Source: Acidobacteriota bacterium (GTDB lineage Bacteria > Acidobacteriota > Terriglobia > Acidiferrales > UBA7541). Taken from it: a DNA stretch of 64,000 nucleotides. The position numbers and the translations under genes are program-made. Under the pieces are notes generated by a model that saw only the letters and a program-made list of their open reading frames with translations, was not told where the DNA came from and searched no databases. Where the stretch lies: contig QHYK01000074.1 in assembly GCA_003224085.1 (NCBI GenBank), positions 1 to 64,000 on the forward strand, written 5' to 3'. Shown here one piece after another: positions 12,579 to 28,358 of this stretch (position 1 is its first letter; each line of letters starts with the position of its first letter).

Positions 12579-13379
12579 ATGACTGCCATCATCACGATTG
12601 CGAACCAAAAGGGCGGCGTAGGCAAGACAACAACGGCAATCAACCTGGCAGCGGCGCTGGCACTTCGCGGCAAGAAAACACTCCTCATTGATCTCGATCC
12701 GCAAGCGAATTCCACGATCGCATTTTATGATGCCGGGGAAGTCTCTACGTCCATGTTTGACGTGTTGGGCGACAGCCGCGCAGGATTGCCCACGGTGATT
12801 AGGGCCACGAAGGATCCCTTGCTGTTCTTGTGCCCTGGCCGGCTGGCTTTGGCGAAGCTGGAGCAAGCGCTCGCGGGACAATTTGACGCACCTTTCCGGT
12901 TGAAAGATGCGCTGGCACCGGTAGAGAAGGACTACGACTACATGATTGTGGACACACCGCCTTCGCTTGGGATTCTGACGGTCAATGCGCTGGTGGCCGC
13001 GACCCATTTGCTTGTGCCCATCCAAGCGGCGTACTTCGCGATCGAAGGAACGGACGATCTTCTCGAGACTTACGAGCGGATTCGCGCGCGGCCGAATCCC
13101 GGGCTGAAAGTGCTCGGCGTGGTCATCACGCTTTACGACAAGCGCACGAACATATCCAAGGACACGCACGGACAGATTCGCAGCGTGTTCGGGGAAGTGC
13201 TGTTCAAGACGAAAATTACCAAGAACGTGCGGCTGGAGGAGAGCCCGGCCTACAAGGAAACGATTTTTACATTTGCACCGAAATCACCCGGCGCCGCCGA
13301 GTACAAAAAACTCGCGGGGGAGGTTGTTCAACGTGTCGAAGAGGATCGGGTTGCCAGTCACGCTGAAGATGCGGCATGA
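12579..13379 (+). CDS. parA: ParA family partition ATPase
   Basis: This 266-residue protein has a deviant Walker A KGGVGKTTT at residues 11-19, LLIDLDPQANST (Walker A-prime region) and DYMIVDTPPSLG (Walker B), which is the Soj/ParA layout without an N-terminal DNA-binding extension. Chromosomal ParA works with ParB to move origin regions or other cargo. ATG 12579 follows GAGCGGAGG. The 3' end overlaps the parB start by about 47 bases. There is no rsmG/mnmG neighbourhood, so this may be a second, non-canonical parAB pair rather than the origin-linked one. Confidence 0.92.
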   Translation: MTAIITIANQKGGVGKTTTAINLAAALALRGKKTLLIDLDPQANSTIAFYDAGEVSTSMFDVLGDSRAGLPTVIRATKDPLLFLCPGRLALAKLEQALAGQFDAPFRLKDALAPVEKDYDYMIVDTPPSLGILTVNALVAATHLLVPIQAAYFAIEGTDDLLETYERIRARPNPGLKVLGVVITLYDKRTNISKDTHGQIRSVFGEVLFKTKITKNVRLEESPAYKETIFTFAPKSPGAAEYKKLAGEVVQRVEEDRVASHAEDAA

Positions 13380-14190
13380 CGCGCACTACGTAGAATCGCT
13401 GACAAGCTATAGCGGGGCGGCCGTCGGGCGGATGATCCGGCTGGATCAGATCCGTCCGAATCCAGATCAGCCGCGCAAGGCGCTGGGCGATTTGCGCGAA
13501 CTGGCTGAGTCGGTGCGCGAGAAAGGCGTGCTCGAGCCGCTGCTGGTGCGCTACGTACCGCGCGAGGATTGCTACTACATCATCTCCGGCGAACGCCGCT
13601 ATCATGCGGCGCGTACGGCTGGATTGCGGGAAGTGCCGTGCATCGAGAAGATGGCGGATGACGCGGAAACTCTCGAACTCGGGTTAATCGAGAACATCCA
13701 GCGCAAAGATCTGACACCGTTTGAAGAAGCGGATGGGCTGCACCGGCTGAGCACACAATTCGAATACACGCACGAAGACATCGCGAAGAAAATCGGGCGG
13801 GCGCGTTCTTCTGTGACGGAAACGCTCTCGCTGCGAAGCATCCCCGATTTGTTGCGCAGAAAGTGCGTCGATCATGGAGTTATGTCCAAATCGCTGCTGC
13901 TGCAAATTGCGCGCCAACCCAACGAAAAGAAAATGGCCGAGATGCTTCAGCGCATTTTGCAGGGAGGGCTGACGCGCGATGAGGCGCGGCGCGAACGCAG
14001 GCAAGAGCGAACAGGTCCACAGCGGCCCAGGCCCTTCATCTTCCAATTCGAGCCGCCGAGCGAAACCTTCAAGTTCCGGATTCAATTCAAGAAAAGCCAT
14101 GTTTCGCGCGATGAACTGATTTCAACGCTGCGGGAAATTCTGGCGCAGCTTGAAGGAAGTTCCTCGGAAGCGGATACCACGGCTGCGTAA
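13333..14190 (+). CDS. parB: ParB/RepB/Spo0J family partition protein
   Basis: This 285-residue protein has a ParB N-terminal domain with IRLDQIRPNPDQPRK, SGERRYHAARTAGL (the CTP-binding GERR box) and LIENIQRKDLTPFEEA. A helix-turn-helix follows at EDIAKKIGRARSSVTETLSL. A basic, Pro-containing linker leads to a C-terminal dimerisation stretch. The GTG at 13333 is chosen because GGGGGAGG lies about 9 bases upstream, inside parA; a longer frame from 13273 has no such site. The N-terminal MRHDAHYVE segment before the ParB domain is not part of canonical Spo0J. parS sites were not recognised nearby. Confidence 0.9.
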   Translation: MSKRIGLPVTLKMRHDAHYVESLTSYSGAAVGRMIRLDQIRPNPDQPRKALGDLRELAESVREKGVLEPLLVRYVPREDCYYIISGERRYHAARTAGLREVPCIEKMADDAETLELGLIENIQRKDLTPFEEADGLHRLSTQFEYTHEDIAKKIGRARSSVTETLSLRSIPDLLRRKCVDHGVMSKSLLLQIARQPNEKKMAEMLQRILQGGLTRDEARRERRQERTGPQRPRPFIFQFEPPSETFKFRIQFKKSHVSRDELISTLREILAQLEGSSSEADTTAA

Positions 14191-16470: not shown

Positions 16471-17271
16471 CTAACGCAGCAAAGAATCTCCGACGCGGAG
16501 GAGCTTGCCGGCTTCGGAAGGCGAGACGCGAGTGTTCGTGGCCAGGCGGTAGTAGTGATCGAAGCGCGCTTCGGGAGTCCAGCTGGGAATGTGGCTGCGG
16601 CGATAGTCGGAAAAAATCTTCTGAAAACCAGGAATAATCGCTCCCGTTTGCGGATTACGCGGAGGGACGGCGCAGCGCGCGCAGGGATTGCTGCCCTCGA
16701 ACTGCACTTCACCGATGCGAAAAGGCACGAGTTTCTCTGGCTCTGCGGCGAAGAGCTGGTCTTCCCATAAGGGCGGGACGCCGTCGATTTCCAGCGTGGT
16801 GCGAAAACGCAGCCGCATGTCGTTGGCGGTCAATCCGGGGAACAAAGCCGCCATCGCATCAAGCGTGGCGGTCGAAATGATGGTAGGGCCGTTGGCGACG
16901 GCATCGTCGGGAAAGCCTTCCGGTGAATAACGCACGGTGATGGACTGGTCGAAAAAAGCGCTAAACCACTGCGCGGCGTCGGCGAACCCGCCGGGAAAGT
17001 CGAGGGTTTTCGTGGGAGTGCCGCGGCGGTCGGGAACGGAGAGGGTGACGGAGCTGAAGTCCGGCGCATAGGTTGCGCGAATCAGATGAACAGCCGCAGT
17101 GCGCTTGCCATTCACCCATTGGCCATCCGCGGAGTAGAGAGCCCAGACGCGGTCAAATTCCAGTCCGCCACCTGGCCCGATGCGAGCTTCCCTGACCTGC
17201 ACCGGATCGAGCGCCTTAATCGGGTGCAACTGAATGATGGCAAGCCGCGGCGAAACCGTCGAGGTTTCCAC
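16471..17271 (-). CDS. MOSC-domain protein (YcbX/mARC-like)
   Basis: This 266-residue protein has a MOSC N-terminal beta-barrel domain (LAIIQLHPIKALDPVQV, GGLEFDRVWALYSADG) followed by a MOSC domain. The latter contains EGSNPCARCAVPPRNPQTG, where the first Cys of NPCARC corresponds to the molybdenum-ligating Cys of the mARC/YcbX family. Such enzymes reduce N-hydroxylated compounds with a molybdenum cofactor and a ferredoxin or flavoprotein partner. No fused ferredoxin domain is present. It starts with GTG. It lies 60 bases past the end of the DUF3307 gene. Confidence 0.87.
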   Translation of the reverse strand: METSTVSPRLAIIQLHPIKALDPVQVREARIGPGGGLEFDRVWALYSADGQWVNGKRTAAVHLIRATYAPDFSSVTLSVPDRRGTPTKTLDFPGGFADAAQWFSAFFDQSITVRYSPEGFPDDAVANGPTIISTATLDAMAALFPGLTANDMRLRFRTTLEIDGVPPLWEDQLFAAEPEKLVPFRIGEVQFEGSNPCARCAVPPRNPQTGAIIPGFQKIFSDYRRSHIPSWTPEARFDHYYRLATNTRVSPSEAGKLLRVGDSLLR

Positions 17272-17331
17272 GCCCAGATTCTAACAAAACTGAGAAGGAA
17301 AGCAGCGCATGGGGAACGGCGCTGTGGAAAT

Positions 17332-18126
17332 TTATCCCGTGACGTGAAACTGGCCCAGGACTATGCGTGCGAGGACCGCACCACCGAGAACCGCGATCGA
17401 GAAGCTCAGAAGCGTGCCGATCAGAAAATATTCTGCGAAGTGTTCGGACTTGAATTCGGGATAACGCGCAATCGCTTTGGCGGCCAGGATCAGTCCAGCC
17501 GTACCCGGAGATTGCAGCAGCAAGGCGGTGAGCAGCAGAAAGCGCTCGAGCCAACCGATGTACAGGCCGGCGTTTTGCATAGGGTCGTTGCCTTTTTCCT
17601 CTGGATACAGCTTGACGCTTTCCGCCAGCGGACGCGTCAGGGCGCGAATCAGATAGCCGCCGCCAAAAATCACGGTGATGTAAATGACGGGCACCACCAA
17701 CAGCTTGCTCGGAATGGCGCGCCCGCTTGCAAGCAGCGCGGCTGCTTCCGCGAGGGAAGGCCCCGGTGAAAGCAGCCAGGCGGCCAAGGCGACGGTCAAA
17801 AAGTGAAGAAACTGGTCGGAAACATAGGCGATGGCCCCGTCCTTGACAAAAGCCATTTGGGCGAAGCGGATTTTCGCCATGTCGATGAGCAAATGGACAA
17901 GCGTAAGGACGAGAAGGACTAAATGCGTACGCAACTGTAAGCCGGATCCTGCGAGGAAGAAGCTTACGAGAATGACCGCGGCGAGGTAGTGGATGAGGCC
18001 GTGAAGGAAATAGGCAAAGAATTTGCCGCGCCGCTTTTGTTCGACAAGGCGATGTGTCTGAAAAACGAAATCGGCCAGCAGATGAGCCAGGTAAATCGCC
18101 AGGAACGCCCGGAAGAGGATTTGCAT
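17332..18126 (-). CDS. DUF3307 multi-pass membrane protein
   Basis: This 264-residue protein has about seven hydrophobic segments. Conserved polar pairs sit in or beside membrane helices: HLLAD (His15/Asp19), HGLIH (His42/His46) and HLLID (His78/Asp82). The pattern recalls membrane-bound metal-dependent hydrolases, but that activity is inference; DUF3307 has no known function. ATG 18126 is chosen. An in-frame TTG at 18138 lies inside a TTGTACAA operator, and the first membrane helix starts directly after the ATG. It follows the SatD-like gene by 51 bases, and that spacer carries three TTTGTACAAA-type sites. Confidence 0.8.
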   Translation of the reverse strand: MQILFRAFLAIYLAHLLADFVFQTHRLVEQKRRGKFFAYFLHGLIHYLAAVILVSFFLAGSGLQLRTHLVLLVLTLVHLLIDMAKIRFAQMAFVKDGAIAYVSDQFLHFLTVALAAWLLSPGPSLAEAAALLASGRAIPSKLLVVPVIYITVIFGGGYLIRALTRPLAESVKLYPEEKGNDPMQNAGLYIGWLERFLLLTALLLQSPGTAGLILAAKAIARYPEFKSEHFAEYFLIGTLLSFSIAVLGGAVLARIVLGQFHVTG

Positions 18127-18129
18127 AGC

Positions 18130-18170
18130 TTTGTACAAATTTCCCGATTTGTACGTTTTTGTGCAACAAA
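18130..18170. promoter_or_regulatory. TTTGTACAAA operator cluster before the DUF3307 gene
   Basis: A perfect palindrome TTTGTACAAA is at 18130-18139, ATTTGTAC at 18147-18154 and a degenerate TTTGTGCAACAAA at 18158-18170. They fill the 51-base gap between the SatD-like and DUF3307 genes and overlap the latter's translation initiation region. The motif is the same as in the array upstream of satD. Confidence 0.7.
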
Positions 18171-18176
18171 TGATAA

Positions 18177-18821
18177 CTAACGAAAAGAGCGTTCGATGAA
18201 CGCCCCGGCTACTTTAGCAGTTTCGGCGAGTTGCCAATAGTATCCCCGTTTCAAGTTTCGGGAAACCGTCGAAACATCCAGCTTGAGCCGCTTGGCCGTT
18301 TGCTCGAGAGCCGGTTCGTCCAGGAAGCGGCGAATCGTTTCCCACTGTTTCGCGGTGATCTGGGCCACCAGGGTATCGTGCAAGCCGTAAAGCAGATTGA
18401 TGGTCTGGTCAAAGACTTCGTTATGCGAAGCAAAGGCGGTCAGAACCTCGAATTTGAAGAGGCCGCTGGCCTTGACATTTTCGAGGGCCCCGCGCGCGAA
18501 CTGAAAGGCCTGGCCGGTGAGCCGGTTGACGGGAGGCTGGATGCGGTCGGCAACATCGCCGATACCGATTCCTGCACGAAGGGACAAAGGCTGAAAGGAG
18601 ACGCGCAAATCCAAAAGCAGCGCGGGAAGCGACGCCAGGGCTCCGGTGACGGTCTGGAATTCGTCGCCGGCGGTCACGCTATAGGGCAGGCGAATGAGCT
18701 TTTCGCGCAAGTGCTTTTCTGAAGCCGCGGCGAGCTTCTTGCCCAGCAGCGTCCGCAGGTCCTTGCGGTCGCTGGAGGCCAGGACGTCAGCGATCAGCAC
18801 TCCGTGGATTGCGCAAGACAT
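18177..18821 (-). CDS. SatD-family protein with C-terminal helix-turn-helix
   Basis: This protein has 214 residues from ATG 18821. The N-terminal region reads like the SatD family: HGVLIADVLASSDRKDL, SVTAGDEFQTV (about 48-58) and LRAGIGIGDVADRI (about 81-94). These blocks resemble, at motif level, the metal-binding Asp, the GDxF loop and the R-x-GIxxG strand of class III nucleotide cyclases/GGDEF folds. Residues about 159-198 form a helix-turn-helix (ALEQTAKRLKLDVSTVSRNLKRG). Function is unknown. The DNA-binding end and the operator array directly upstream suggest an autoregulator. An alternative ATG at 18851 touches the operator. It is followed by the DUF3307 gene. Confidence 0.78.
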   Translation of the reverse strand: MSCAIHGVLIADVLASSDRKDLRTLLGKKLAAASEKHLREKLIRLPYSVTAGDEFQTVTGALASLPALLLDLRVSFQPLSLRAGIGIGDVADRIQPPVNRLTGQAFQFARGALENVKASGLFKFEVLTAFASHNEVFDQTINLLYGLHDTLVAQITAKQWETIRRFLDEPALEQTAKRLKLDVSTVSRNLKRGYYWQLAETAKVAGAFIERSFR

Positions 18822-18850
18822 GGTATGCCCATTTCCGGGCTTTTCTTTCA

Positions 18851-18960
18851 TTTGTACAAACGGGCAAATCTAAGCATTTGCGCAATAATGTACAAATACA
18901 TATTGTTGTACATAAACATACAAATACTAAGATTTGTACAATACTGTACAAACCAAGAAA
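18851..18960. repeat. Iteron-like array of four 26-28 bp repeats with TTTGTACAAA palindromes
   Basis: Four head-to-tail units lie at 18851-18876 (26 bp), 18877-18904, 18905-18932 and 18933-18960 (28 bp each). Each starts with a TTTGTACAAA-type palindrome (TTTGTACAAA, TTTGCGCAAT, GTTGTACATA, TTTGTACAAT). In units 2-4 a second palindrome-like copy is centred about 10 bp further on (AATGTACAAA, ACATACAAAT, ACTGTACAAA); in unit 1 only the CAAAT half remains. The array lies upstream of, and touches, the SatD-like gene and covers its likely promoter. Confidence 0.85.
18867..18895 (-). promoter_or_regulatory. Putative satD promoter embedded in the operator array
   Basis: On the minus strand TTGTAC (18890-18895) and TAGATT (18867-18872) are separated by 17 bases. 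The -35 is part of one palindrome, and the expected start of transcription falls in the TTTGTACAAA at 18851-18860. That is a classic repressor geometry. Confidence 0.5.
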
Positions 18961-19140
18961 TGTCAAGCAAAATTTGCACTGTTTGGGGTCTCCTGCGGCC
19001 CGGCGGATAAGCTTCGGTGCCGGTCCGCCGCCCAGGACCCTAAACTCGCCCGGCACGCAAAGGCTCGGCTTTGTTAGCGCGAGGCCGACAGGGTTGTTCC
19101 TGCGAGTCGGAAGTGGCTGCTCGCTTGGCAGTGCCGTTCC

Positions 19141-19497
19141 CTAGCGCGGCGGCATTGCGGCAGCGCTGGCGGCGGCCTGGACGGGCTTGTAACCGCACGT
19201 CGCGGCCTTCCGCATGGCTTCCAACCCTTCCGCGTTGGACAGCAGCGCCGTGGTCTGGCATTCGCGCAACGAGCCGCCGGCGCCAAACGCCAGAGCAATC
19301 GCCGCCGCCGAGACGTTATCCGGCATGTCCGTGATGAGCACGGCATCGTACTGCCCGAACGCAAAGTACGAGCTCAGCACTCTGCCTCCGAGCTTTTCGA
19401 TCGGTGCGCGTACGGCGTCGAACCGGTTCTGCGGATTCGCAATGAGCTTGGCCAGGGCTTCGGGCGTGTAGCTGACTTGATGAAGAAAGAAAGGCAT
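19141..19497 (-). CDS. GYD-domain protein
   Basis: This 118-residue protein is of the GYD family: MPFFLHQVSYTPEALAKLI, then VRAPIEKLGGRVLSSYFAFGQYDAVLITDMPD, which holds the G-x-YD signature (GQYDAV). The C-terminal 20 residues are Ala-rich. GYD proteins are small ferredoxin-like-fold proteins without an established role. ATG 19497 is preceded by AAGGAGG. A single TTTGTACAGA site (19517-19526) lies just upstream of the ribosome site, the same motif as in the neighbouring satD array, so it may be co-regulated. Confidence 0.88.
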   Translation of the reverse strand: MPFFLHQVSYTPEALAKLIANPQNRFDAVRAPIEKLGGRVLSSYFAFGQYDAVLITDMPDNVSAAAIALAFGAGGSLRECQTTALLSNAEGLEAMRKAATCGYKPVQAAASAAAMPPR

Positions 19498-20116
19498 GAC
19501 AAACCTCCTTGGACACTTTGTACAGATAAGAACATCCCGGGGAAACAGGACAATTTGTTTGTCGCGGACTATCTGCCGATGATTCATGCGCGTCAAGAGG
19601 CTGGCGCGCGAGATACGTAAAGACTTGGATAGCTGTTCGGATTTGGGTATACGGCGCCTTGTTATTTAACGGAGTCCATCCGCCCGGCTTGGGGCGCTTC
19701 TTGCGGACGACGGGGAAGAAGGGAGGGGTGCATCGCTCGAAAGTGCGGGACGGAGCGCTCCTTTGCCTTGGTGCAGCCCTCCTGGCGAACAGCCGCCCAA
19801 GGCAAGGGAAGTAGTGTCGCTCGTCAATATTCCGTGCCAGCGCACCTACTTCGGTTCGCTGGCTGTGCGGTCGCCCGAGCTCGGCGAACCGTACGCCGTT
19901 CACGCCCACCCCCGGATGCACCGGCGTGATCGGTCTCGGCGACAAGCGGACGGACCAGTTCCATACCACGGCGAAAGAAATCGCCGAAGAGTCTCGCCCG
20001 CGAGCTGAATGGCGACTCGGGGGAGGCGCGTCCCATAAGGAATATTATGTTAACTAATAGGCGGGCACAAATCCCTCCACTAAGGGTGCGGTTGTTCACG
20101 ACCGGATGCCCTTCTT
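19498..20116. other. 619-base gap between the GYD and DsbA-like genes
   Basis: I find no gene here with start, ribosome site and plausible composition. Near the GYD end are its Shine-Dalgarno and the TTTGTACAGA site. TTGCCTTGG (19763-19771) and CCAAGGCAA (19797-19805) form an inverted repeat with a 25-base loop and no T-tract. An AT-rich patch with GTTAAC lies near 20045. The rest is featureless to me and could be a decayed gene or hold an unrecognised RNA. Confidence 0.5.
19517..19526. promoter_or_regulatory. Single TTTGTACAGA site upstream of the GYD gene
   Basis: Nine of ten bases match the palindrome TTTGTACAAA of the satD array 560-670 bp away. It lies 20 bases upstream of the GYD start codon, next to the Shine-Dalgarno. 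Confidence 0.5.
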
Positions 20117-21043
20117 CTAGGGCTTGCTAGCTCTTTCCGCTGATTTGGTCGGGTTCAGTTTGGCGAGTTCGTAGTTGATAAATTGCTGGAGCAGGCGCTC
20201 ATCGGCGCCTACCATCCGGCGGCCATTTACAAAGAGGGTGGGCGTGCTGTTGACCTCCAGCTGTTCGCCGTTGGCATGGCTCGCATTCACGGCGGCTGCC
20301 GCTTTAGGGCCGGCCATACAACCCTTAAACGCTTCGGCATCCAGACCTGACTGGCTGGCATAGTCGACCATCTTGGTCCACGCGTTGGCCGCCGAGATGA
20401 CCTCCTGGTTGTCATAGACGAGATCGTACAACTTCCAGAACGCTTCCGGCCTCTGCTGGTAAGCGCAGCGGCCAGCAATCGCTGCGGTTCGCGCCCAGGG
20501 ATGGAGCTGCTCGAGGGGGAAATCTTTGAATATGACGCGCACCTTGCCCGCGTAATTAGGCAGCATTCCTCTCAAAACGTCGTGGAGGTTACGGCATACG
20601 GGACACTCGAAATCGGAGTATTCCACGATGGTCACGGGCGCCTTGGGATCACCCAGCGTGGGCGCATCGCTCATGTGGATCTGAGTAAGATTTTCCGCCA
20701 GCGGGTCCTTGGTCATATCCGAGAGCTCGCCGCGGAAAAGGTACCTCCCGTCCTTGCTCACGTAGAATTTAGCCTTCTGCTTGTTGTCACCAACGGTGAC
20801 GTCGATGTTCGTCTCCAGGATTCCTTCTATCTGCGACTCTTTGAGCGGCCCGACAATCACGCTCACGTCAGACCCAAACGCGTAGAGGTTCCGCAAATAG
20901 GCTTCAATATTCTTCTGCGTCTGGGTCGGCGCGGACGACCCGGTTGCGGGTGCGCTTGGCAGCTGCGCCGCGGCGACGGACACAAACAGAGCGGCGGCCA
21001 GGGTTGCGGTAAGTTGACCTAGCATTTTCACAAACGACCTCAT
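20117..21043 (-). CDS. DsbA-like secreted thiol-disulfide oxidoreductase
   Basis: This 308-residue protein has a signal peptide (about 1-26, AAAQ) and an N-terminal extension resembling a DsbC-type dimerisation region (about 45-120, DVSVIVGPLKESQIEGILETN). The thioredoxin-like DsbA domain covers about 125-300. The active site is CPVC (147-150) in YSDFECPVCRNLHDVL, and the cis-Pro loop is in NSTPTLFVNG. The DSBA/BdbD-type arrangement suggests periplasmic disulfide formation or isomerisation. ATG 21043 and ATG 21025 are both possible starts; neither has a strong ribosome site. Confidence 0.88.
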   Translation of the reverse strand: MRSFVKMLGQLTATLAAALFVSVAAAQLPSAPATGSSAPTQTQKNIEAYLRNLYAFGSDVSVIVGPLKESQIEGILETNIDVTVGDNKQKAKFYVSKDGRYLFRGELSDMTKDPLAENLTQIHMSDAPTLGDPKAPVTIVEYSDFECPVCRNLHDVLRGMLPNYAGKVRVIFKDFPLEQLHPWARTAAIAGRCAYQQRPEAFWKLYDLVYDNQEVISAANAWTKMVDYASQSGLDAEAFKGCMAGPKAAAAVNASHANGEQLEVNSTPTLFVNGRRMVGADERLLQQFINYELAKLNPTKSAERASKP

Positions 21044-27441: not shown

Positions 27442-28358
27442 CCCGCCGTCACCGGTGGCGCCGTCGCGGCCACTTCCGCGCCGCGCGGCACCAAGCGATA
27501 GCACAGGAGCACAACCAGGACGGAAAACGCAAACAAAATCGCCCCCACCACGGTGTGAATCACCGTGAGCCAAACCATCAGCGGCATCGGTTGCGGCGCG
27601 TCGGCGGTCGTGAGCCGCGACCAATACGCCAGCAGCCCCAGCAAGAACTGCGCCCCAAAGATAGCGTGCAGCAAAATGCGCGCCTTGCCGAGCTCCGGCG
27701 AAGCGCCAAACCTCTTGCGGAGTGCCACCGCAGTCCAAGTTACCGTGCCAAGAACTACCAACGCCCCTGCGGCGTGGGGCCAGATCGCAAAGTCCTTATG
27801 CCGGAATCCTGCGCCAAGAATCACCTGCAAATAAATCACGAGGGCATTCCATATCGCGACTGAATGAATCGATGGCGAACCCTTGTCTTCGAGTTGCGGC
27901 CGTTCCGAAACCCACCACTTGCTTGTGAAAACCGCAATCCCCAGCACCGCCGCAAAGACAATCTGCGCAAAGCAAGCGTGAATCACCGGCAGCCAGTAAT
28001 GCAGAAGCTGAATCACAACCTGGCCACCGAGTATTGCCTGCACTACAACTCCGAGCACGGCAATCCCGCCCAGCCAGCGCAGCCAAACGCGGCTCTCCTC
28101 CCCTAGCAGCAATACCGCCAGGACCAGCGTAAAGATCCCCAAACCTCCGGCTACAAAGCGATGCGAAAACTCAAAGAAATCACCGCCTTGCAGCGAACTG
28201 AGCGGAGGCACCCAGGCGCCGTGCGATTTCGGCCAGTCCGTCACCGAAAGCGCCGCGTCTTTGGAGGTCACCAGCGCGCCTGCGACAAACAGCAGAATCG
28301 TCCAGCAAACGGTGAAAACGGCAAATTTGTGCACACCTGATTTGTACTTAGCTGTCAT
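27438..28358 (-). CDS. ctaA: Haem A synthase (COX15/CtaA family)
   Basis: This 306-residue membrane protein has about eight hydrophobic segments and the conserved haem-ligand regions FEFSHRFVAGGLG, HYWLPVIHACFAQ, WPHAAGALVVLG and WLTVIHTVVGAI. It oxidises haem O to haem A. ATG 28358 opens the three-gene run ctaA-ctaB-DUF420, with ATGA coupling to ctaB. The DUF2007 gene is divergent upstream. Confidence 0.95.
   Translation of the reverse strand: MTAKYKSGVHKFAVFTVCWTILLFVAGALVTSKDAALSVTDWPKSHGAWVPPLSSLQGGDFFEFSHRFVAGGLGIFTLVLAVLLLGEESRVWLRWLGGIAVLGVVVQAILGGQVVIQLLHYWLPVIHACFAQIVFAAVLGIAVFTSKWWVSERPQLEDKGSPSIHSVAIWNALVIYLQVILGAGFRHKDFAIWPHAAGALVVLGTVTWTAVALRKRFGASPELGKARILLHAIFGAQFLLGLLAYWSRLTTADAPQPMPLMVWLTVIHTVVGAILFAFSVLVVLLCYRLVPRGAEVAATAPPVTAG

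Follow-up and report, generated by a model that had tools for sequence, protein, structure and literature searches.

Several described systems share parts of their layout with the satD-DUF3307 gene pair analysed here. Type II toxin-antitoxin operons are autoregulated units of adjacent genes with dyads over the promoter. The Panoptes system (mCpol/OptS) places a palm-fold, cyclase-like protein beside a membrane protein, and the accessible part of its report describes loss of mCpol as freeing a toxic effector (PMC12657230). Regulators of the PucR/CdaR type, for example MabR (Rv2242), combine a GGDEF domain and a helix-turn-helix (HTH) in one protein (PMC11617747, partial text). Within the literature covered, which leaves subscription papers outside its scope, we found no established function for the widespread SatD (PF16264) and DUF3307 (PF11750) families, no text treating the two together and none that describes for them an operator array, a function in common or a domain resembling a cyclase. 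The sat operon of S. mutans reportedly has its own original paper. As far as the accessible texts go, satD is essential yet accessory in S. pyogenes (emm1, emm28 and emm49 strains), is tabulated in S. suis as encoding a DNA-binding protein and also as a small-RNA target (PMC12005413), and gives a product that is among the proteins raised in one S. pyogenes sublineage (PMC10210942).

The satD-DUF3307 locus shares with type II toxin-antitoxin operons the dyads at the promoter and two adjacent, co-directional genes, the first of which would encode the DNA-binding product; it departs from them in that DUF3307 is modelled as a multi-helix protein and SatD has a predicted cyclase-like domain. As in Panoptes, a palm-fold, cyclase-like protein, here a predicted one, is encoded beside a presumed membrane protein. 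Unlike its Panoptes counterpart, SatD carries an HTH and, as argued below, probably an operator of its own, and DUF3307 is modelled as all-helical, with no beta-barrel, unlike the 2TM-beta effector. Autoregulatory operator arrays as such are known. What is new is a fixed 28/29-bp lattice whose letters change through much of the SatD family, together with the predicted cyclase-like domain of SatD as a regulator. The window, that is, the whole 64-kb stretch analysed, encodes both proteins with scores above their Pfam cut-offs, and its features are as follows.

17332 to 18126, minus strand: DUF3307 gene, 264 aa (PF11750, 65.9 bits against a cut-off of 23)
18120 to 18139, no strand: second array, dyad b, overlapping the DUF3307 start, 28 bp from dyad a
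18148 to 18167, no strand: second array, dyad a, a perfect TTGYACN6GTRCAA at 18149-18166
18177 to 18821, minus strand: satD coding sequence (PF16264, 45.8 bits against a cut-off of 29)
18851 to 18869, no strand: degenerate fourth dyad, TTTGTACAAACGGGCAAAT, 26 bp from dyad 3
18867 to 18872, minus strand: -10 element TAGATT of promoter P2, 17 bp from its -35
18877 to 18896, no strand: dyad 3, TTTGCGCAATAATGTACAAA
18890 to 18895, minus strand: -35 element TTGTAC of promoter P2, an arm of dyad 3
18905 to 18924, no strand: dyad 2, GTTGTACATAAACATACAAA
18933 to 18952, no strand: dyad 1, TTTGTACAATACTGTACAAA, perfect
18938 to 18943, minus strand: -10 element TATTGT of promoter P1, inside dyad 1
18961 to 18966, minus strand: -35 element TTGACA of promoter P1, outside the array
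ATG at 19498, minus strand: GYD-domain gene (PF08734)

Positions 18851-18952 hold three good dyads of the form TTTGTAC-N6-GTACAAA plus the degenerate fourth, which one of our dyad detectors counts as a unit and another does not. The centres of the good dyads (18886.5, 18914.5 and 18942.5) are spaced exactly 28 bp apart, and the symmetric unit is a dyad of 18-20 bp built from the half-site (T)TTGTAC and a 6-bp spacer. A sequence-only reading of this DNA had proposed a repeated palindromic array before satD; the array is confirmed, and is larger than first described, extending beyond the limits drawn there. The unit proposed in that reading did not stand: a palindrome of the TTTGTACAAA type is ruled out as the repeat because the symmetry belongs to the whole dyad of two half-sites, and the two palindromes described as about 10 bp from each other each correspond to one arm of a single dyad. 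Nor do the palindromes share one helical face every 28 bp, since 28 bp corresponds to 2.67 turns and sets adjacent dyads on different faces of the helix. The motif TTTGTACN6GTACAAA with up to 3 mismatches matches 7 times in the 64 kb, against 1.15 expected (maximum of 100 shuffles, 4); five of these matches are in the satD-DUF3307 operon and the other two are at 19517 and 21115. With a detector that looks for two dyads 28 or 29 bp apart, the only window tiles to pass are those at 18801 and 18901.

A second, weaker pair of dyads (18120-18167) lies in the gap before DUF3307 and over its start; it fails the two-dyad 28/29-bp detector. Like the array at satD, this pair extends into or close to promoter-like sequence. 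When the 6.8-Mb genome was searched for TTGYACN6GTRCAA with at most one mismatch, 41 places were returned, compared with 27 for a reversed-pattern control. The operon holds 5 of the 41 and two of the three perfect ones; outside it, none of the places are close enough together for an array. A wider regulon in this genome was rejected on the same comparison (41 against 27), and the third perfect place, which has a G+C-rich spacer, reads as chance. The two half-sites TTTGTGCACA...TTTGTACTTA at 28326-28350 form no dyad of the satD-array kind. Just upstream of the GYD-domain gene there is a single TTTGTACA half-site (19517-19536, a dyad with 3 mismatches), possibly stray or weak. A ParB-type protein (ParB_N and HTH_ParB) is encoded at 13273-14190, about 4 kb from the satD operon.

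Of the 89 genomes of the family, 29 (one of them the window's own) have PF16264, with 33 matches in total. Thirty of the 33 were analysed first and comprised 26 loci of the window type and four divergent ones (L002, L003, L004 and L030). The sequence-only reading had named a lack of conservation of the palindrome upstream of orthologous satD genes as grounds for refuting it, and the loci do not bear such a refutation out. By a loose expression, at least one upstream dyad is present in 24 of the 26 loci of the window type (a count that takes in the window itself), and the architecture recurs with other letters in distant relatives (see below); the dyads of the other two loci (L021 and L025) deviate from the expression by one base or more. 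The four divergent loci carry dyads of a CAACC type instead, such as CAACCT-N4-AGGTTG, which is found three times, 29 bp apart, in L002. In three genomes (G006, G008 and G016) SatD of the CAACC type coexists with SatD of the TTGTAC type, and the dyads at the three TTGTAC-type copies are TTGTAC-like, those of L152 being degenerate.

To these loci were added 13 further ones from a draw of 396 genomes of the phylum (SatD in 13, the window's own included), named loci from the best 80 of 556 confirmed stretches (three of which repeat L002-L004) and 4 plasmid records. The resulting set of 127 loci was reduced to 96 representatives less than 70% identical to each other, of which 64 come from a single scan on a GDEF pattern (best 80 of 556) and the other 32 are reported apart. 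Within the 170 bp before the conserved protein start, identical 6-mers in the 96 loci recur at a lag of 28 bp in 146 pairs (4.3 in shuffled sequence) and at 29 bp in 261 pairs (4.5 in shuffled sequence), with second harmonics at 56 (58 pairs) and 58 (101 pairs). The neighbouring lags of 27 and 30 bp gave 3 and 6 pairs, and the next largest counts were 28 pairs at a lag of 17 and 25 pairs at a lag of 12. The best period between 15 and 45 (at least 13 of 20 bases equal) was 28 in 25 of the 96 loci and 29 in 38, as opposed to 2 and 4 in one shuffled set. A detector for two dyads sharing one half-site (pass at 16 or more of 18) accepted 62 of the 96 loci at 28/29 bp, compared with 0-1 of 96 in ten shuffles and 5 of 1388 control tiles taken from these loci; at other periods from 18 to 45 it never accepted more than 3 of 96. 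Counts over 96 retain the 21 loci that score below 15, and in one of these (L021) degenerate dyads are visible by eye. Clear arrays are found in Clostridiales (L097, five units), Lachnospiraceae (L102), Eisenbacteria (L074), Anaerolineaceae (L103), Streptococcus moroccensis (L119, 28 bp), Sphingomonas (L136, 28 bp) and Halorientalis (L134, 29 bp). Overall, satD genes preceded by this architecture come from Acidobacteria, Firmicutes, Eisenbacteria, Chloroflexi, Fusobacteria, a sphingomonad and a haloarchaeon. One SatD subtype (L044-L047; HTH SLMWRREKS or similar) has odd-spacer dyads centred on a base, with periods of 28 and 29 and the half-site TTGCA, except for L046 (TTTTCAT).

The array is likely to be the operator of SatD itself, a reading drawn from these sequence comparisons. 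A SatD dimer would sit on each 18-20-bp dyad through the C-terminal HTH, and several dimers would load on the 28- or 29-bp lattice over or against the satD promoter, holding down the satD-DUF3307 operon; in the window's lineage, the second array would add control before DUF3307. The pair would then be an autoregulated two-gene module, probably an autorepressed one. As to the sign of the effect, net repression by SatD at the array is favoured with moderate confidence, and the promoters are the evidence that bears on it. The promoter TTGTAC-17-TAGATT named in the sequence-only reading (P2) is present, with the -35 at 18895-18890 and the -10 at 18872-18867; a better match to the consensus, TTGACA-17-TATTGT (P1), was absent from that reading. 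The pattern TTGYAY-N17-TANNNT is found in 20 of the 26 window-type loci, counting the window, compared with 0-6 of 26 when the spacer is set to another length between 12 and 22, and in 13 of the 26 its -10 differs from TATAAT by at most one base. A promoter of the P1 type occurs in 7 of the 26, the window again being one. In Streptococcus L119 a TATAAT lies inside the dyads. In a wider comparison, 55 loci were examined and the 32 that matched at the chosen threshold were scored. In 12 of these 32 (ten Firmicutes) the -35 begins 14-16.5 bp 3' of a dyad centre, which means that the array abuts the promoter from upstream, and in L097, L102 and L130 the entire array is upstream of the detected promoter. 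A single promoter geometry was thus not found across the SatD family: arrays of the window type and of L119 overlap the promoter, and those of the 12 abut it. One -35/spacer/-10 unit spans 29 bp and is thus about as long as the 28-29-bp period.

An array that ends just upstream of the core promoter, as in these 12 of 32 scored loci (L097 and L130, for instance), would also allow SatD to bind the same sites and activate its own operon. We consider this reversal of sign unlikely, as the -35 and -10 elements are in or between the dyads in 20 of the 26 window-type loci and the TATAAT of L119 is within them, a placement for which occlusion is the simpler effect.

The letters of the half-site bear on which protein reads the array. 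They vary by lineage and tend to track the last HTH of SatD, in groups that were picked by eye. TTGTAC half-sites go with the HTH STVSRNLKRG; ATGCA with Q-S-[ST]-[VI]-[QN]-R (L083, L097, L099, L102, L115, L123 and others); ATTC with a Q-S-[ST]-[VI]-[QN] helix ending in K (L073, L087, L100 and L125, though not L106, which has ATATG); CAACC with Q-A-[VI]-S-K (L002, L004, L053 and L065); TCACCCA with QVVSRQ (L058 and L059); and TTCGSC with S-x-V-S-E (L042, from the window's phylum, and the archaeal L134). A partial Mantel test that controlled for the rest of the protein, run on the 55 of 96 loci with an array score of at least 24, gave an r of 0.21, a value reached by none of 2000 permutations; where pairs share little N-terminal identity, the gain in operator similarity is small (0.35 to 0.39). 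Covariation of operator and HTH is thus modest, and counts as support for SatD as the binder, not as proof.

The second arrays add to this. In 18 of 69 loci (array score of at least 23 and enough sequence), a pair of dyads at the satD stop, built on the locus's own half-site, outscores all other tiles. Fifteen of the 18 are of the TTGTAC/TTGCAC type (L001, L005, L006, L008, L015, L016, L017, L020-L025, L028 and L050) and make up every scored locus of that type; the other three (L042, L048 and L099) use different half-sites. Non-cognate consensus sequences never matched the second arrays of L042 (0 of 56) and L048 (0 of 58); at L006, L016, L021 and L025, 6 of 55, 1 of 55, 3 of 63 and 1 of 55 of them, respectively, scored at least as well as the locus's own half-site. 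The result for L099 may be due to chance, and the remaining 51 of the 69 loci have no outstanding second array. Where a second array stands out, its letters have changed in step with those of the first, as recognition of the two by a single protein would lead one to expect. Matching second arrays and covariation together support the earlier nomination of SatD as candidate binder, and we consider SatD itself very probably the ligand.

Dyads of this size are common among regulators, and a single TTTGTACA site also precedes the GYD gene at 19517, which would suit another regulator that binds the array and controls satD. Such a regulator is improbable: the array accompanies satD across many phyla with letters that tend to follow the SatD HTH, co-resident SatD types each retain their own letters, and no other array-forming cluster is present among the 41 places of the genome (at most one mismatch). 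With SatD as the reader, the array names a probable regulator, its target and a DNA code that varies with the protein, makes SatD specificity testable with short oligonucleotides, and suggests how several SatD copies might coexist in a genome with no cross-talk between them. The same dyads could also pair in RNA, and three of the four in the window are downstream of the expected P1 start, so that the repeats might act as hairpins of a 5' leader. We regard this as very improbable, because the letters vary around a period fixed to one base, the arrays of L097, L102 and L130 are upstream of the detected promoter and would not be transcribed from it, and Rfam at gathering thresholds gave no match in 17000-20200. 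The "iteron-like" label of the sequence-only reading holds for the regular repeats, which lie in an A+T-rich stretch, but as an analogy only, and true iterons serving a replication initiator of an integrated element can practically be dismissed, given that the units are dyads and not simple direct repeats, that arrays precede satD in 62 of 96 loci with a second array inside the operon, and that nothing was found linking the array to replication.

For the protein itself, we prefer the start at 18821 (MSCAIHGVLIADV) over that at 18851, since in relatives the conserved block is preceded at a distance of a few residues by an ATG. The terminal HTH that the sequence-only reading had seen in SatD is retained, but the larger part of the protein is predicted to be nucleotide-cyclase-like. 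An AlphaFold2 model of a divergent-type SatD (L003, not the window protein; pLDDT 90.4, 13-row alignment) shows an alpha/beta domain at the N-terminus and, at the C-terminus, a helical part that contains the HTH. Its top Foldseek matches are class III adenylyl cyclases (best E 1.2e-4), and a second look placed cyclases, GTP cyclohydrolase III, mCpol OptS (9pd0, Z 9.4) and a GGDEF domain all at Z 9.0-10.5, with nine cyclases among the ten best rows (Z 10.0-10.5, rmsd 2.2-3.6 over 112-147 residues). An hhalign comparison of SatD with 11 cyclases from the phylum gave an E of 0.001 at a probability of just 21%, and paired the IGDMVGS block with the first Asp motif, GDEFQ with GDAYM, and LRVGVGFG with IRIGIHSG. 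The alignment puts D19 and D63 of SatD onto the cyclase Asp motifs, whose Asp pair are metal-binding residues. Each of the two is kept in 31 of the 32 loci that were not selected on the motif; in the other 64 of the 96 representatives GDEF is conserved by selection, the scan having demanded a GDEF peptide pattern. The prediction for the N-terminal domain of SatD is thus a fold of the class III cyclase/GGDEF/mCpol kind that retains both metal-site acids.

Class III cyclases have a transition-state Asn four residues before a conserved Arg, plus a conserved Lys ahead of the second Asp motif, and the 11 cyclases from the phylum are invariant at these positions (K54, N134 and R138). SatD has Y, F or L, not Asn, four residues before its own conserved Arg (94 of 96 loci for the residue and 94 of 96 for the Arg), provided that this Arg, which lies outside the hhalign range, corresponds to the cyclase one, and no Lys before GDE is conserved across 13 SatD sequences. 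As the cyclase Asn and Lys have no conserved SatD counterpart, we do not file SatD as a class III cyclase. PF00211, the class III nucleotidyl cyclase model, gave no row for the window SatD at E <= 0.1 and no match in the window's genome, and a SatD profile found nothing significant among the sequences of solved structures (best E 0.092; cyclase domain 1ybt, E 0.47). The PucR-type HTH and GGDEF-like Pfam domains also gave no rows for the window SatD at E <= 0.1. GGDEF domains of PucR-type regulators are degenerate; Rv2242 (9f80) ranked fifth by Foldseek for the L003 model, with a superposition that is poor over the length (rmsd 13.3). PADLOC returned only CARF rows (best E 2.7e-4, L003), aligned to the HTH region. 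Together, the predicted fold and the conserved metal site make a nucleotide, bound or made by the N-terminal domain, the likely signal that would alter DNA binding; that SatD is under nucleotide control at all is plausible, if somewhat short of an even chance. By joining a cyclase-fold domain to an array-binding HTH, one small protein would couple transcription to nucleotide signals.

The partner, DUF3307, is presumably a membrane protein. Its model is all-helical (pLDDT 88.6) and matched no known fold by Foldseek at E 0.001; a second look gave scores of Z 6.6 at most. A DUF3307-like gene is located downstream of satD in 90 of the 96 loci and shares its strand in 89 of them; three of the six loci without one have less than 900 bp of downstream sequence and three have at least 900 bp. 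In two haloarchaeal annotations and in the ORF list of Streptococcus L119 the two genes overlap. By Pfam models, the 89 family genomes divide into 25 with both proteins, 4 with SatD only, 1 with DUF3307 only and 59 with neither (Fisher p 7e-17, for genomes that are related and so not independent). Two of the SatD-only genomes (G036 and G039) have a DUF3307-like stretch that was found with a model of our own (L023 and L016, respectively), and in the other two (G003 and G066) the satD match is at a contig end. The DUF3307-only genome (G023; L155, C9:2200-5000) has a satD that lacks its 5' half and the upstream array, with DUF3307 and the second array intact. Either DUF3307 without an intact SatD is tolerated, at least in G023, or the break is an assembly effect.

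One extension of the repression model is a guard-type module spread across bacteria and archaea. A palm-fold SatD that binds or makes a nucleotide would, as an array-bound self-repressor, silence the membrane effector DUF3307 by repression plus nucleotide or direct contact, and the loss or disturbance of SatD would free the effector. Essentiality only where a gene is present is, we infer, what would be expected of the repressor or antitoxin of a harmful neighbour, and the essential yet accessory satD of S. pyogenes would be understandable if SatD restrained a harmful partner. Such a module remains speculative in our estimation, and a guard or antitoxin role for SatD is correspondingly doubtful.

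The N-terminal part of DUF3307 is matched by phrog_2470 (E 2e-12), a family of phage membrane proteins in the host takeover category, and a DUF3307 gene in a phage appears in the accessible text of PMC8504454. Carriage of the pair by phages was not borne out by a tblastn search of a phage collection, in which queries with two SatD and two DUF3307 sequences found nothing, though phages may carry their own version of DUF3307. The partner has at least 200 aa in 76 of the 89 loci in which it was measured, and a short form of 95-138 aa is encoded in L044-L047, L092, L103, L106, L107, L121 and L136.
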